Program-made: the position numbers and the translations under genes
DNA from: a virus
IMG/VR virus record: IMGVR_UViG_3300045284_000255
Coordinates: 1-28,275 of that record
Direction: 5' to 3' (one strand)
Length of the DNA: 28,275 nt
Notes under the pieces: model-generated
Database searches by the model: none
Told to the model about the DNA's origin: nothing
The model's input: the letters and a program-made list of their open reading frames with translations, nothing else
Part shown: piece after piece, positions 14,479-20,272 of the stretch
Numbering within the stretch: position 1 is the first letter of the stretch
How the letters are laid out: every line of letters begins with the position of its first letter

Positions 14479-15555
14479 TCACCCTCGCTGAGCCAGGAAC
14501 GGCATCGCCGCCGCCGCCCCGCGACCGCGCTCGGCAAGGTTGATGTACGCCTGCGCCTGCGCCGGGGTCGACCAGTCGTACACCGCCATGAGCTGGTAGT
14601 GGCTGGCCCCGGCCATCGCCGCCCGCATGGCGCCGAGCTTGCGTAGGCCGTGAGCGGTGCAGTCGTCGAGGCCGACCTTGCGACATTGGTCGGCGAACCA
14701 ACTACCGAACCCGGCCACGCTGAACGGCTTCCCGTAGTCGGTCACCAGGAACGTGTCGCGCCCCTGCAGCTTGGTCGCCGCAACGATGCGGGCCAGCTCG
14801 GGCAGGAACGGCTTCGGGGTGGCTTGGTTGCGAATGCGCCTCGTCTTGCGCGGGACGAACCGGATCATGCCGTCGCGCACGCAGGCGGGGCCGAGGCCGA
14901 CGACATCGGATCGCCGCGCGCCGGTGAATAGCAACAATCCCAACGCCAGCCGCTGCTTGGTGCCGACCGGATAGGCGTCCTCGAATTTTGTTAGGTCGGT
15001 CTCGGTCCACGGCCGGAATCCGTGCGACTCGTATTTCAGCTTCTGGACATCGCGCACCGGGTTCGAGGCGACCGCGTTAGGCAGGTTTTCGAGACCCCAT
15101 CCGAACATCGCCGACAGATATTTCATCCGGTTGTTGGCGGCCCCCGGCTGCGCCGCCCGGCGATCGCGTAGCAGCCTGACCTGGTTCGGGCCGAACAGCG
15201 TCAGCGGGCACTCGGCCATACGCCGCGAGCTACCGGCGATGGCAATCTCGCGCAGGCAACTCTCGATCGTCGACATGCGCAGGCCCTGCGACTTGATGTC
15301 GAGATTGCGGAACACCGGCGAGGCAAAATACTGGCCGGCGAGCCAGCGCAGCGTGCCCTTGCGCTCCGCGGATTCTTTGCCGAGCGGCTGCCCGAGCTCG
15401 GCGACGGCGGCCTCGTAGGCTGCCATGAAGCCGGGGGTGCCGAACGGCTCTCGGATTCGGATGCGGCGGCGCTTGCGGGCCCCGGCGATGACATAGACCA
15501 CCTCGCGCCCGTGGCGGTTGCGCTCGACGCTCAGATACTTCAGCCGCACCTTCAT
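14479..15555 (-). CDS. int: Tyrosine recombinase / phage integrase
   Basis: A 358-residue protein with a full catalytic set: T-G-A-R214-R-S-D, K237 in the beta hairpin, H302-G-L-R305, W328 in place of the second His, and the nucleophile Y337 in A-Q-A-Y-I. An N-terminal arm-type domain (about 1-60) and a core-binding helical domain (about 65-170) precede the catalytic domain. It would integrate and excise the phage at attP/attB. The ATG overlaps the upstream TGA (ATGA at 15552-15555). It lies within a leftward operon and is flanked on both sides by phage genes, so this copy is not at a prophage boundary. attP was not identified; intergenic or 14087-14475 DNA nearby is a candidate. Confidence 0.93.
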   Translation of the reverse strand: MKVRLKYLSVERNRHGREVVYVIAGARKRRRIRIREPFGTPGFMAAYEAAVAELGQPLGKESAERKGTLRWLAGQYFASPVFRNLDIKSQGLRMSTIESCLREIAIAGSSRRMAECPLTLFGPNQVRLLRDRRAAQPGAANNRMKYLSAMFGWGLENLPNAVASNPVRDVQKLKYESHGFRPWTETDLTKFEDAYPVGTKQRLALGLLLFTGARRSDVVGLGPACVRDGMIRFVPRKTRRIRNQATPKPFLPELARIVAATKLQGRDTFLVTDYGKPFSVAGFGSWFADQCRKVGLDDCTAHGLRKLGAMRAAMAGASHYQLMAVYDWSTPAQAQAYINLAERGRGAAAAMPFLAQRG

Positions 15556-16954: not shown

Positions 16955-16979
16955 GTCTGGTGCTCCTCTGGAGCGGGAA

Positions 16980-17017
16980 GCGCGTGCGGACGCGAGGCCA
17001 TTCGAACCCGCACGCGC
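16980..17017 (-). terminator. Strong inverted repeat downstream of the exported-protein gene
   Basis: GCGCGTGCGG (16980-16989) and CCGCACGCGC (17008-17017) form a perfect 10-bp stem with an 18-base loop. It lies in the 98-bp gap (16955-17052) between the PEP-CTERM-like gene and the next gene on the minus strand. No U-tract follows, so it may be an attenuator, RNA-stabilising 3' structure or Rho-dependent site instead of a classical terminator. The rest of the gap holds only the ribosome site of the next gene. Confidence 0.4.
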
Positions 17018-17052
17018 CCTCATGCTGACGGAAGGGCAGAGGGAACGTCCCG

Positions 17053-17700
17053 TCAGGCGTGAGCTTGGTTGCGGCGACGGCGCTTCATGGCGAGGCCCCA
17101 CATCCCGATGCAGGCCGCGACGATGCCGGGGAAGCCGGCACCGACGACCGGGCTAGGCACGGCCTGAGGTGCAGCAATGTCGATCCGATAGTGCTCGAAG
17201 TCCGTGAGGGTGCCGGTCGTGACGACCCGAAACGAGTTGATCGTCTCACCGTTGATGGCGGTCAAGGTGAAGCCGGATTGGGACGACAAGCTAAGCGCGC
17301 CGAGACTGAACGTGAACAGCGCAGTGCCACCGCCAATTTCATTGGCGATCACGATCGCGGATGCGTCTCCGGTGCCCTTCAGGGAGAACACATCGGTGGC
17401 GGTGGGCAGCACGGTGACGGCGTCGGGAGCAAAAACCTGAACTTTCAGGTCGTTGGTGTTGGCGATCTTGATGTCGTTGCCGTTAGCCGCCCCGGTGAAG
17501 CCGACGCAGCCGCCCAGGCAACTGAAGTCGACGAGACCAGTGTGCTGGCCGTTGAAGCTGCCGACGGCAACGTTGCCAAACAGCCCCTGGAATATGACGT
17601 TGTCGCCGGTGCCGCTTAAGTGGTTGTCGATGATGACGTCGGCCGCGGCCGGTGCCGATAGTGCCAGTACGGCGGCGGTGGCAAGTAGGTATTTGCGCAT
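17053..17700 (-). CDS. Secreted protein with PEP-CTERM-like C-terminal sorting signal
   Basis: A 215-residue protein with a clear Sec signal peptide (MRKYLLATAAVLALSAPAAA, cleavage after about residue 20). A beta-rich, Gly/Asn/Thr-rich body holds a Cys pair (FSCLGGCVGF) at about 60-69. The end has V-P-S-P-V-V-G-A-G-F-P-G-I-V-A-A-C-I-G, then a hydrophobic stretch and M-K-R-R-R-R-N. This tripartite tail (V-P-x-P motif, TM helix, Arg cluster) matches the PEP-CTERM type recognised by exosortases, in a variant common in Bradyrhizobium. It is very unlike virion proteins and lies between recombination and integration genes, so a lysogen-expressed cell-surface 'moron' is likely. A GAGGGG site lies upstream; a promoter of its own was not clear. 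Confidence 0.75.
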   Translation of the reverse strand: MRKYLLATAAVLALSAPAAADVIIDNHLSGTGDNVIFQGLFGNVAVGSFNGQHTGLVDFSCLGGCVGFTGAANGNDIKIANTNDLKVQVFAPDAVTVLPTATDVFSLKGTGDASAIVIANEIGGGTALFTFSLGALSLSSQSGFTLTAINGETINSFRVVTTGTLTDFEHYRIDIAAPQAVPSPVVGAGFPGIVAACIGMWGLAMKRRRRNQAHA

Positions 17701-17715
17701 TGGGATATAACCCCT

Positions 17716-17922
17716 CTAAGGTTTCAGGTTAAGGTTTGTGTCGTTCGTATTCCGTTGACGGTCGTTGCCCTCCTTTGCTTTGAGCAGTGCCTCTTCCTCC
17801 CATTCGACGAGTTCCATGATGGCGGCGTGATAGTCGTCCTCGGACATATCGCCGTTGAGCAGCAGGCGCTCCAGGTGATCCAGCATCCGGTCCACGCGCT
17901 GATCGATCTCTTGCTCGGTCAC
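17716..17922 (-). CDS. Small acidic helical protein
   Basis: Starts at GTG 17922, which overlaps the stop of the annealing-protein gene (GTGA at 17919-17922). The 68-residue product is very acidic and helical: E-I-D-Q-R-V-D-R-M-L-D-H-L-E-R-L-L-L-N-G, then M-S-E-D-D-Y-H-A-A-I-M-E-L-V-E-W-E-E-E. The pattern of two helices around 'GDMSEDDY' resembles short helical-hairpin proteins with a 'G-x-I-s-e-e-e-y' turn, but no specific family is identified. Coupling to the recombination gene suggests a possible accessory to it. This is the last gene of the left operon before the exported-protein gene. Confidence 0.6.
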   Translation of the reverse strand: MTEQEIDQRVDRMLDHLERLLLNGDMSEDDYHAAIMELVEWEEEALLKAKEGNDRQRNTNDTNLNLKP

Positions 17923-18668
17923 GTCATCAGCCCTCGCAATTCGTCGCCCATCTCGTTGAGCCGCTCGCGTTCCTTGGCGTTGCGGCTCTTGTAGAAAGTC
18001 TTGAACACGGCCTCGCCGCGCATGGCGGCCTCGCGCGCCATGTCCTCGAACGACAGAGCCGCCCCGCCCGCGTCGGTTTCGGTGTCGGGCGAGGCGGCCT
18101 GTTCCGCCATCGCGTTGTTCGGCGCGGGTGGCGGTACTTCTCCAGTCTCGGGATCGTGCTGCAGCATCGCGTTTGGTGCTGGCGGCGGCGGGCGACGGTG
18201 CGCCATCACCGGGATGTCGTCGATCTCAAGTTCGTCGAGCCAACCGAGCCCGCAGATCGACAGCGTCACACGGCGCTTGCCCTTGGTGACCGCCTTGAGC
18301 TCGGCGTTGGCGCGGGCCTCGCCCTTGAGCGTCTCAGGGTAATAAACGGACCCGAGATCCTCGTCGGCGCGGCCATCCGGCAGCTTGGCGCGGACGTGGA
18401 CGGTGAGGATGTCGTTGGCAATCTCACGGGAGACGATCTCCAACGTGACGTTGTTGATCTTGCGTAACTGGTCGGTGGCGCCGCGCAGCGCGTACAGCGT
18501 TAGCCTGTTATTCAGCGTGACGTACTCGAAAGGTTTTGTCAGTGGGTTTAAGCCGAGCGAGTTGCACACTTGGCCATAGTATTGCACCCGTTCGTCAGGC
18601 GTCAGCTTGGCGAGGTCGCCCTTGACCAGGACGGATTCCATTATGTCGGTCTTGACGGGGATGTTCAT
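17919..18668 (-). CDS. Putative single-strand annealing / recombination protein
   Basis: ATG 18668 overlaps the exonuclease stop (ATGA at 18665-18668) and has GAGGG upstream; the longer in-frame N-terminus lies inside the exonuclease gene. The 249-residue protein has L-T-P-D-E-R-V-Q-Y-Y-G-Q-V-C-N-S-L-G-L-N then P-L-T-K-P-F-E-Y-V (23-50), T-D-Q-L-R-K-I (65-71) and A-E-L-K-A-V-T-K-G-K-R-R-V-T-L-S-I-C-G-L-G (122-142). The last block resembles the Rad52-type 'K-A..T-K-A-K-R-R...G-L-G' core. Being coupled to a YqaJ-type exonuclease strongly suggests a Red-beta-like role. The C-terminus is a Pro-rich linker plus a short acidic helix, as in other annealing proteins. The fold assignment is inferred, not proven. 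Confidence 0.6.
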   Translation of the reverse strand: MNIPVKTDIMESVLVKGDLAKLTPDERVQYYGQVCNSLGLNPLTKPFEYVTLNNRLTLYALRGATDQLRKINNVTLEIVSREIANDILTVHVRAKLPDGRADEDLGSVYYPETLKGEARANAELKAVTKGKRRVTLSICGLGWLDELEIDDIPVMAHRRPPPPAPNAMLQHDPETGEVPPPAPNNAMAEQAASPDTETDAGGAALSFEDMAREAAMRGEAVFKTFYKSRNAKERERLNEMGDELRGLMT

Positions 18669-19456
18669 GTGATTTCCCTCAACGACAAGCGACCGGCGCG
18701 ATCGCGGGTTATGCTCACGCCGTAGCCGGTGCATTTTTTGGCGTCCGGCGGCACAAGGCTTTTGAGATACTTCTCGGCATCAGCGCAGTCGCGGGCGGCA
18801 GCTTTGGTCGTGAGCCATGTCACAGCGGCGCTGGCCCATTCATTTGAGCCGTCCATCGAATAAATCTTGCTCGCCTCGACCGGCGGCGGAACGGCGGGCA
18901 GCGTCACCGGCTCGATTCGCCGCGCCACGCAGTCCATGAACTGCCGGCCGCGCACGACCATCTCGGCGGCGTAGTCGGCATCGCGTTCGATGAACTCGAC
19001 GATCGGCTCGCTGGCACCCATGATGACAGAGAGCGCGCATTGCTTGGCGCCGGTGACTTCCATCAGCCAGCCCATCTGGGGCCAGTAGCGATCGACGATG
19101 ACTTCAAGCGGTTCACGGCCCCCGACGTGCTTGCCCTCGAACGGACACCCAAGCGCGTCGATCCACCCATCCAGCGTGCAAGCGGCCCAGTCGTAATAGC
19201 GGTGAACGACGACCTCGCCGCGGCGCGTGACCGGCGTGCGATTCTTGCGCTCAAACCAATCGCAATTGAGCTGTTCGGTTGCGACGCCGAGCTGCACTGC
19301 CCACACGTCGGACAGGTCTTCCGGCACGAACGCCGGGTCGTCGGTCATCTCGAGATAGAGGTTCATGATCTTGGCGGCGTCGCCGGTCATCAAGGCGGCC
19401 ACGCGCGATCCCGTCAGCCGGCCCCTGCGCGCCGCGATCTGGGCGGGGCTCAGCAT
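18665..19456 (-). CDS. YqaJ-like viral recombinase (exonuclease)
   Basis: A 263-residue protein with the PD-(D/E)XK exonuclease layout of YqaJ proteins: R-x-G-R-L-T-G-S-R-V-A-A-L-M (10-23), Q55-x-G57-x3-E61, T-L-D96-G, F-E107-G-K109 and Y124-W-P-Q127-M. D96 and E107-x-K109 are the likely metal-binding and catalytic residues. It would resect double-stranded ends to leave single strands for the annealing protein encoded next, as lambda Exo does for Bet. The ATG immediately follows the TAG of the repeat-protein gene. The C-terminal 80 residues look like an extra helical domain (EWASAAVTWLTTKAAARDCADAEKYL), which is unusual. Confidence 0.85.
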   Translation of the reverse strand: MLSPAQIAARRGRLTGSRVAALMTGDAAKIMNLYLEMTDDPAFVPEDLSDVWAVQLGVATEQLNCDWFERKNRTPVTRRGEVVVHRYYDWAACTLDGWIDALGCPFEGKHVGGREPLEVIVDRYWPQMGWLMEVTGAKQCALSVIMGASEPIVEFIERDADYAAEMVVRGRQFMDCVARRIEPVTLPAVPPPVEASKIYSMDGSNEWASAAVTWLTTKAAARDCADAEKYLKSLVPPDAKKCTGYGVSITRDRAGRLSLREIT

Positions 19457-20272
19457 CTACGCGCCCACCGTGACGGTGTTGTCATGCTGGGCTTCGATCA
19501 TGCGCTCGATCAGTTTGACGGCCGACTGCTGCAATTCGGCCTTGACCGGCGCGAGTTTCTTGCCCGCTGCGTCCCACGCTGCGGCCCTCGCTGCGGCCCA
19601 CGCTGCGTCCCACGCTGCGGCCCTCGCTGCGGCCCACGCTGCGTCCCACGCTGCGGCCCTCGCTGCGGCCCACGCTGTGGCCCACGCTGCGTCCCACGCT
19701 GCGGCCCACGCTGTGGCCCACGCTGCGTCCCTCGCTGCGGCCCTCGCTGCGGCCCACGCTGCGGCCCACGCTGTGGCCCACGCTGCGTCCCTCGCTGCGG
19801 CCCTCGCTGCGGCCCTCGCTGCGGCCCACGCTGCGGCCGCATCTACACGCGCGGCTTCGATCGGACCTGTGATTGACGGGACTTGTTTGAGCGAGGTGAT
19901 CTCCGGAAGAGCCGCGAGCGCGTCGGCGTGAACGGTGAGCCCGGCCAACCGTAGCCATGCCGGTGTATTGACACGCACCAGCCAATCGGCGGCCAACAGC
20001 GAGCGTCGCTTCTCAAGCGCCTTGCTGCCGCGCGTGCCGACCAGTCGCGGGATCAGTGGCAAAAGAAGAGTGGTCCGCTCATCGTCGGGCAGCCCGTCGT
20101 TCCATGAGCGCATGAAGGCGCCAATGACCGGGCACGCGCACTCGGGATGGTCGGACCACGGTTCGCGCGCGACATAGGCGACCGCTTCCATCGCGCACAT
20201 GTGGCTGTTCGGGTCGTGCGATCCGCTGTAGAGCGTCGTGATGGTGGCGAGACGTTCCGTGTCGACGATCAT
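19457..20272 (-). CDS. Conserved N-domain protein with Ala/Trp/Arg tetrapeptide repeats
   Basis: A 271-residue protein. Residues about 15-112 form a recognisable but uncharacterised domain ([44 protein letters not shown]). Similar proteins occur in phages and actinobacteria. Residues about 144-235 are 23 tetrapeptides of the form A-A-(W/R)-(A/D or T), encoded by 12-bp tandem repeats, predicting one long helix of roughly 14 nm. A charged helix ends the protein. The ATG overlaps the upstream HTH gene's stop (ATGA at 20269-20272). Position among recombination genes may hint at a DNA or scaffold role, but no function is known. Confidence 0.75.
19566..19841. repeat. Tandem repeat: 23 units of 12 bp, in-frame coding minisatellite
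   Basis: Exactly 276 bp of contiguous 12-mers of the form GCTGYGKCCCWC, the last ending in CGCA. Differences sit at three positions and switch W/R, A/D or A/T in the encoded tetrapeptide. Calling GCTGCGTCCCAC=A, GCTGCGGCCCTC=B, GCTGCGGCCCAC=C, GCTGTGGCCCAC=D and GCTGCGTCCCTC=E, the order is ABC ABC ABC D A C D E B C C D E B B C plus a last variant. This shows recent expansion of a 36-bp superunit. All six frames are open across it. Confidence 0.97.

Follow-up and report, generated by a model that had tools for sequence, protein, structure and literature searches.

A soil phage gene for a predicted exported protein whose PEP-CTERM-like putative sorting tail is exchanged among viral relatives

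The stretch of DNA analysed here (the window) is a 28,275-b IMG/VR virus record of 61% GC, a fragment of a tailed temperate soil phage in which integrase and repressor-like genes are present. Tail and lysis genes (major tail protein, tape measure and endolysin) run rightward in its left part; a leftward block encodes a YqaJ/RecE-like exonuclease, a putative annealing protein and a tyrosine integrase; and after this block, repressor- and Cro-like genes, a helicase and a DNA methyltransferase run rightward. No terminase, portal or capsid genes were seen among the ORFs of the window, and its ends, positions 1 and 28275, appear to flank this missing block, which gives the record the look of a fragment. 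The gene under study, which encodes a protein with a distinctive C-terminal tail, is flanked by the exonuclease block and the integrase, on the same strand as both (Table 1). The original prediction had delimited this ORF exactly without stating that it lies on the minus strand, and its description of the surroundings as non-virion genes is borne out by the nearby integrase and exonuclease.

Table 1 Features at the tailed-protein locus, in window coordinates
Feature	Position	Strand	Basis or remark
Tyrosine integrase	14479-15555	-	Downstream; phrog_1, E 5.8e-26; PF00589 over cut-off
Hairpin, 12-bp stem	16978-17019	-	Between tailed-protein gene and next gene; no U-tract
Gene for 215-aa predicted exported protein with PEP-CTERM-like tail	17053-17700	-	ATG start; stop codon included
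Putative sorting tail, residues 181-215	17056-17160	-	VPSPVVGAGFPG motif, hydrophobic helix, KRRRR cluster
All-beta body, residues 21-180	17161-17640	-	Conservation and AlphaFold2 model
Predicted Sec-type signal peptide, residues 1-20, MRKYLLATAAVLALSAPAAA	17641-17700	-	A-x-A cleavage before D21
Shine-Dalgarno-like AGAGGGG	17711-17717	-	Read from sequence; ~10 nt upstream of start
Small ORF, 68 aa	17716-17922	-	15 nt upstream of tailed-protein gene start; no PHROG match
Putative ssDNA-annealing (RecT/Erf-like) protein	17919-18734	-	By eye and position; adjoins exonuclease
YqaJ/RecE-like recombination exonuclease	18665-19456	-	phrog_434, E 2.8e-31; PF09588, E 1.5e-10

The 68-aa upstream ORF and the tailed-protein gene probably share one operon, and the scan showed nothing promoter-like immediately ahead of the latter. 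The product assigned as an annealing protein matched neither PHROG nor Pfam and may represent a divergent annealing family. The same gene order is found in the nearest relative (L002, 89% identical), where an annealing protein of the same cluster lies just upstream and an integrase of the same cluster five ORFs downstream. A strong hairpin had been noted after the gene, and the 111-nt hairpin region indeed folds at -51.9 kcal/mol (z = -2.9), and none of 200 shuffled sequences was equally stable; the T-run typical of intrinsic terminators is missing, however, and the scan did not call the hairpin as one.

Hydropathy analysis revealed just two hydrophobic spans in the protein, residues 5-24 and residues 180-204, the latter followed by KRRRR. 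Around the predicted signal peptide cleavage site, A18, A20 and D21 are invariant or nearly so across 53 relatives. The AlphaFold2 model, built from 53 aligned members (mean pLDDT 90.8), comprises a signal helix at residues 3-13, a 155-residue all-beta body (residues 21-175) and a C-terminal helix at residues 190-214. The body, which belongs to a phage-specific family, contains the motifs SGTGDNVIF, NGNDIKI, FSLKGTG, AINGE and DFEHYRID; it has few K+R residues (3.1%) and many Thr/Asn, a composition reported for PEP-CTERM proteins (Haft et al. 2006, PMC1569441). The complete tail is VPSPVVGAGFPGIVAACIGMWGLAMKRRRRNQAHA; the protein ends 6 residues after the KRRRR cluster, and the order of motif, TM helix and basic cluster is thus present. 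Hydropathy, conservation and the model together confirmed the Sec signal peptide, motif, hydrophobic span and Arg cluster that had been predicted. The protein fitted no PHROG or Pfam family. Foldseek returned weak beta-sandwich matches (FlaA1 sheath protein, E 3.6e-5 at TM ~0.3; CBM29, E ~2e-3), which were not taken as a guide to function.

At least 131 IMG/VR stretches encode relatives of the window protein. The 53 aligned relatives are 41-89% identical with 25 invariant positions, and dN/dS between the window gene and seven relatives is 0.12-0.24; the ORF is a real gene. Its neighbours in the carriers include RecT, RecE, DNA polymerase, primase and helicase families. Of 47 distinct loci, 14 have recombination genes on the strand of the tailed gene within eight ORFs of it and two have them on the other strand, while replication genes near relatives are mixed (12 same strand, 8 opposite). 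Two scans of ~85,000 GTDB bacterial and archaeal species genomes returned no relative except one 31-residue remnant. This remnant (L081:1262-1354; LALAFAAPTKADVIIDPHLSGTGDNVVFDSFNGINA, then a stop) lies near an autotransporter ORF in a Rhizobium-labelled MAG and is possibly a decayed prophage gene. Among named phages and plasmids, no match was found to the window protein, to the other cargo bodies described below, or to a synthetic consensus tail, a very short query that makes for a weak test.

We compared the tail of the window protein with curated sorting models. The Glu of PEP is absent from the tail, VPSPVVGAGFPG, and neither TIGR02595 nor PEPxxWA-CTERM (NF035944, cut-off 35) matched the protein. 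The best of the curated models, PTPA-CTERM (NF033465), reached 12 bits against a cut-off of 29, a very weak match that covers the hydrophobic/Arg part and leaves the motif part unaligned. Since it matches no curated model, the window tail is not a PEP-CTERM tail in the strict sense; its own type is VPGPxxGAGLPG (the GAGLPG type). Curated tails do occur on the same body. Relatives L026 and L030 score 35.5 and 36.8 bits with PEPxxWA-CTERM, above the curated NCBI cut-off, and TIGR02595 (cut-off 16) is passed by L026 (20.9), L030 (21.7), L066 (23.5) and L022 (16.4). Two further same-body relatives, L014 and L038, carry VPLPA-like tails, both below the TIGR03370 cut-off (L014, 23.1 versus 25.35).

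On a maximum-likelihood tree of the bodies, built without the tail columns, there are at least 10 changes of tail type; the well-supported branches alone force at least six changes for the GAGLPG type. By body clustering, the GAGLPG tail is found in six clusters and seven singletons; tail types are mixed in another three clusters. The tree changes and the spread across body clusters show the tail to be modular, with no dependence on the body that carries it. Nine of its positions never vary from one unrelated body to another, a figure partly by construction, as the 24 tails compared were picked by the VP-x-P-xx-GAG-x-PG motif. In all 16 distinct phage loci that encode two tailed proteins with unrelated bodies (14-28% global identity), the two tails are of concordant type (8 GAGLPG, 3 PEPxxW and 5 PLPA-like). 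When labels were shuffled, the mean concordance was 5.8 and never exceeded 14 in 200,000 shuffles. Recent copying of 3' ends was considered as the source of this concordance and rejected: tails within a phage are on average 54% alike versus 46% for same-type tails of different phages, and so slight a difference means that recent copying does not account for most cases.

Sorting tails of this kind had been expected to be uncommon in phages. Two scans of viral contigs showed otherwise, listing many that are nearly all true C-terminal tails. With the GAGLPG DNA pattern, all 88 in-frame motifs listed lie within 60 aa of the stop codon, 22 of them on the body family of the window protein and the others on many different bodies. 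With the PEPxxW pattern, 125 of the 128 motifs listed are at the C-terminus, and no GAGLPG motif was found in the PEPxxW-scan loci listed. Other curated tails on the same body, repeated swaps, within-phage matching and a motif confined to the C-terminus all point to a sorting tail. Most simply read, the tail is an address matched to the host, and the bodies are cargo. These data uphold the PEP-CTERM-like part of the original prediction, which the lack of a curated match otherwise limits; by analogy with known substrates, a PEP-CTERM-like reading of the window tail is strongly supported. The tail class VPGPxxGAGLPG is without a curated model and has been seen so far in viral sequence alone.

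Many short, predicted exported proteins with GAGLPG or PEPxxWA tails were observed at viral loci L113-L191 and L232-L311. Their diverse bodies extend beyond the family of the window protein and include NDGPDSFF, FxDxF-like and LTDAVNAPNQALGFA. Some of this viral cargo resembles the known PEP-CTERM family FxDxF (E 2.8e-10), below the cut-off of that family. Some records from the PEPxxW scan carry IMG ids resembling those of isolate genomes.

We also searched for the enzyme and the host. No exosortase (EpsH, PF09721) was found in 50 phage carrier records, so the enzyme would be that of the host. In the order of the Rhizobium-labelled MAG, 21 of 397 genomes carry an exosortase. A strict DNA pattern for the GAGLPG tail found no real tail in ~930 cellular genomes from the order, class and phylum of that one MAG, a set reached through that lineage only; the two raw hits were out-of-frame. 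A tail profile likewise matched none of 55 cellular genomes, 21 of them with exosortase, while three phage controls matched. The cellular genomes searched thus yielded neither a host with GAGLPG tails nor an exosortase cognate to them. The window integrase has 26 plasmid-borne relatives, and among the matches listed all are from Alphaproteobacteria (Azospirillum, Bradyrhizobium, Rhizobium, Paracoccus, Mesorhizobium and others).

In our view, the best full explanation, with a probability of about 0.65, is that the phage encodes an exported protein that is sorted by a host exosortase and changes the cell surface. The host Sec pathway would export the protein, and the tail would hold it in the inner membrane. 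A host exosortase (XrtA/EpsH-like) would then recognise the VP-x-P-xx-GAG-x-PG motif, the hydrophobic helix and the Arg cluster and, by analogy with PEP-CTERM processing, cleave the tail, and the beta-sandwich body would end up on the outer surface or in the exopolysaccharide. The cargo would thus come from the phage and the sorting enzyme from the host. The tail type would be matched to the host, and recombination would exchange the tail whenever a phage lineage took up a host whose exosortase is of a different class.

The tail might alternatively be a mere C-terminal anchor in the inner membrane, with a periplasmic body that blocks phage DNA entry or aids lysis. The helix and Arg cluster would suffice for stop-transfer under the positive-inside rule, and the failure to find a host exosortase or the exact tail in the cellular genomes searched fits such an anchor. 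However, a plain anchor could do without a conserved VP-x-P-xx-GAG-x-PG motif, yet the tail has its invariant positions, albeit in part by construction, and neither replacement by curated PEPxxWA-CTERM tails nor within-phage matching is expected of a generic one; we therefore regard this explanation as unlikely. The same interchange of PEPxxWA and VPLPA-like tails on the same bodies favours the exosortase class over a phage-specific signal read by another host pathway (rhomboid-, rhombosortase- or archaeosortase-like, or undescribed). The abundance of GAGLPG tails in viral contigs, set against their absence from the tested cellular genomes (the 21 with exosortases included), would suit such a pathway; yet the true host lineage may be unsampled, and we consider another pathway improbable.

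It is very improbable that the protein is a structural or lysis component of the virion (a minor capsid, tail decoration or spanin-like protein) whose signal peptide and hydrophobic tail are incidental. Its weak fold likeness to phage beta-sandwich and carbohydrate-binding domains, known also in tail fibres, is what speaks for such a protein. However, the gene lies among recombination and integration genes, away from the tail and lysis genes; in 12 loci of relatives the late genes nearby (endolysin/virion clusters) run opposite to it, against two loci in which they share its strand; and there is no PHROG match. A virion or lysis identity was rejected on gene position and strand.

If a host exosortase does sort the protein, its purpose would most likely be to remodel the surface of the cell, whether infected or lysogenic, for instance by blocking the adsorption of competing phages. 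In Zoogloea, PEP-CTERM proteins are required for exopolysaccharide retention and floc formation (PMC9012009), and a phage copy could therefore alter the surface seen by other phages. We hold superinfection exclusion as the main purpose only tentatively and think it rather doubtful. A lysogenic-conversion cassette, as proposed, is possible in the window, where the gene sits in a block running from recombination genes to the integrase, but a tyrosine integrase was found in just 11 of 50 carrier records, a count that leaves fragments and serine integrases out of account. With so few carriers encoding one, prophage conversion does not by itself describe the gene, which may act during lytic infection. 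There is a functional precedent for a phage that exploits host sorting: Llp of phage T5, a lipoprotein for superinfection exclusion. Llp (PMC9586334 for T5) and other phage exclusion lipoproteins modify the surface through the envelope-sorting route of the host; the likeness is a functional analogy, as Llp has a lipoprotein sorting signal and another fold, and an exclusion role for the protein described here would be by that analogy only.

The closest known systems are the substrates of PEP-CTERM/EpsH (TIGR02595, PMC1569441). These share with the window protein a signal peptide, a fast-evolving body without known homology that is Thr/Asn-rich and K/R-poor, and an extreme C-terminal motif with a TM helix and a basic cluster. 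They differ in that they are encoded as one-gene operons preceded by long intergenic regions rather than in a phage early/recombination block, and in that the window tail has VPSP...GAGFPG in place of PEP, with no cognate exosortase found. PEPxxWA-CTERM (NF035944) and VPLPA-CTERM (TIGR03370) tails, or close forms of them, occur on same-body relatives, whereas the window tail fits neither model. The sorting logic is thus already known; its use by phages is unreported in the open-access full-text literature searched, where no description of phage-encoded PEP-CTERM proteins was found.

These results suggest that phages borrow the surface-sorting machinery of the host to alter infected cells, which, if true, would link the function of exosortase cargo with phage remodelling of soil-bacterial envelopes and could constitute a new superinfection-exclusion route. 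There is about an even chance that soil phages hold a large undescribed pool of host-sorted proteins with swappable cargo and exosortase-matched tails, including the VPGPxxGAGLPG class. One could then read the host exosortase type off the tail, the tail class might help to predict the hosts of uncultivated phages, and the proteins would offer a virus-borne, swappable system for testing tail/enzyme specificity.

Beyond the exonuclease, 22.8 copies of a 12-bp repeat were observed at 19565-19838 of the window, on the minus strand, inside the ORF at 19457-20272. The repeat array encodes an Ala/Arg/Trp-rich run, and the ORF that contains it is a phage early gene with a weak phrog_3416 match.
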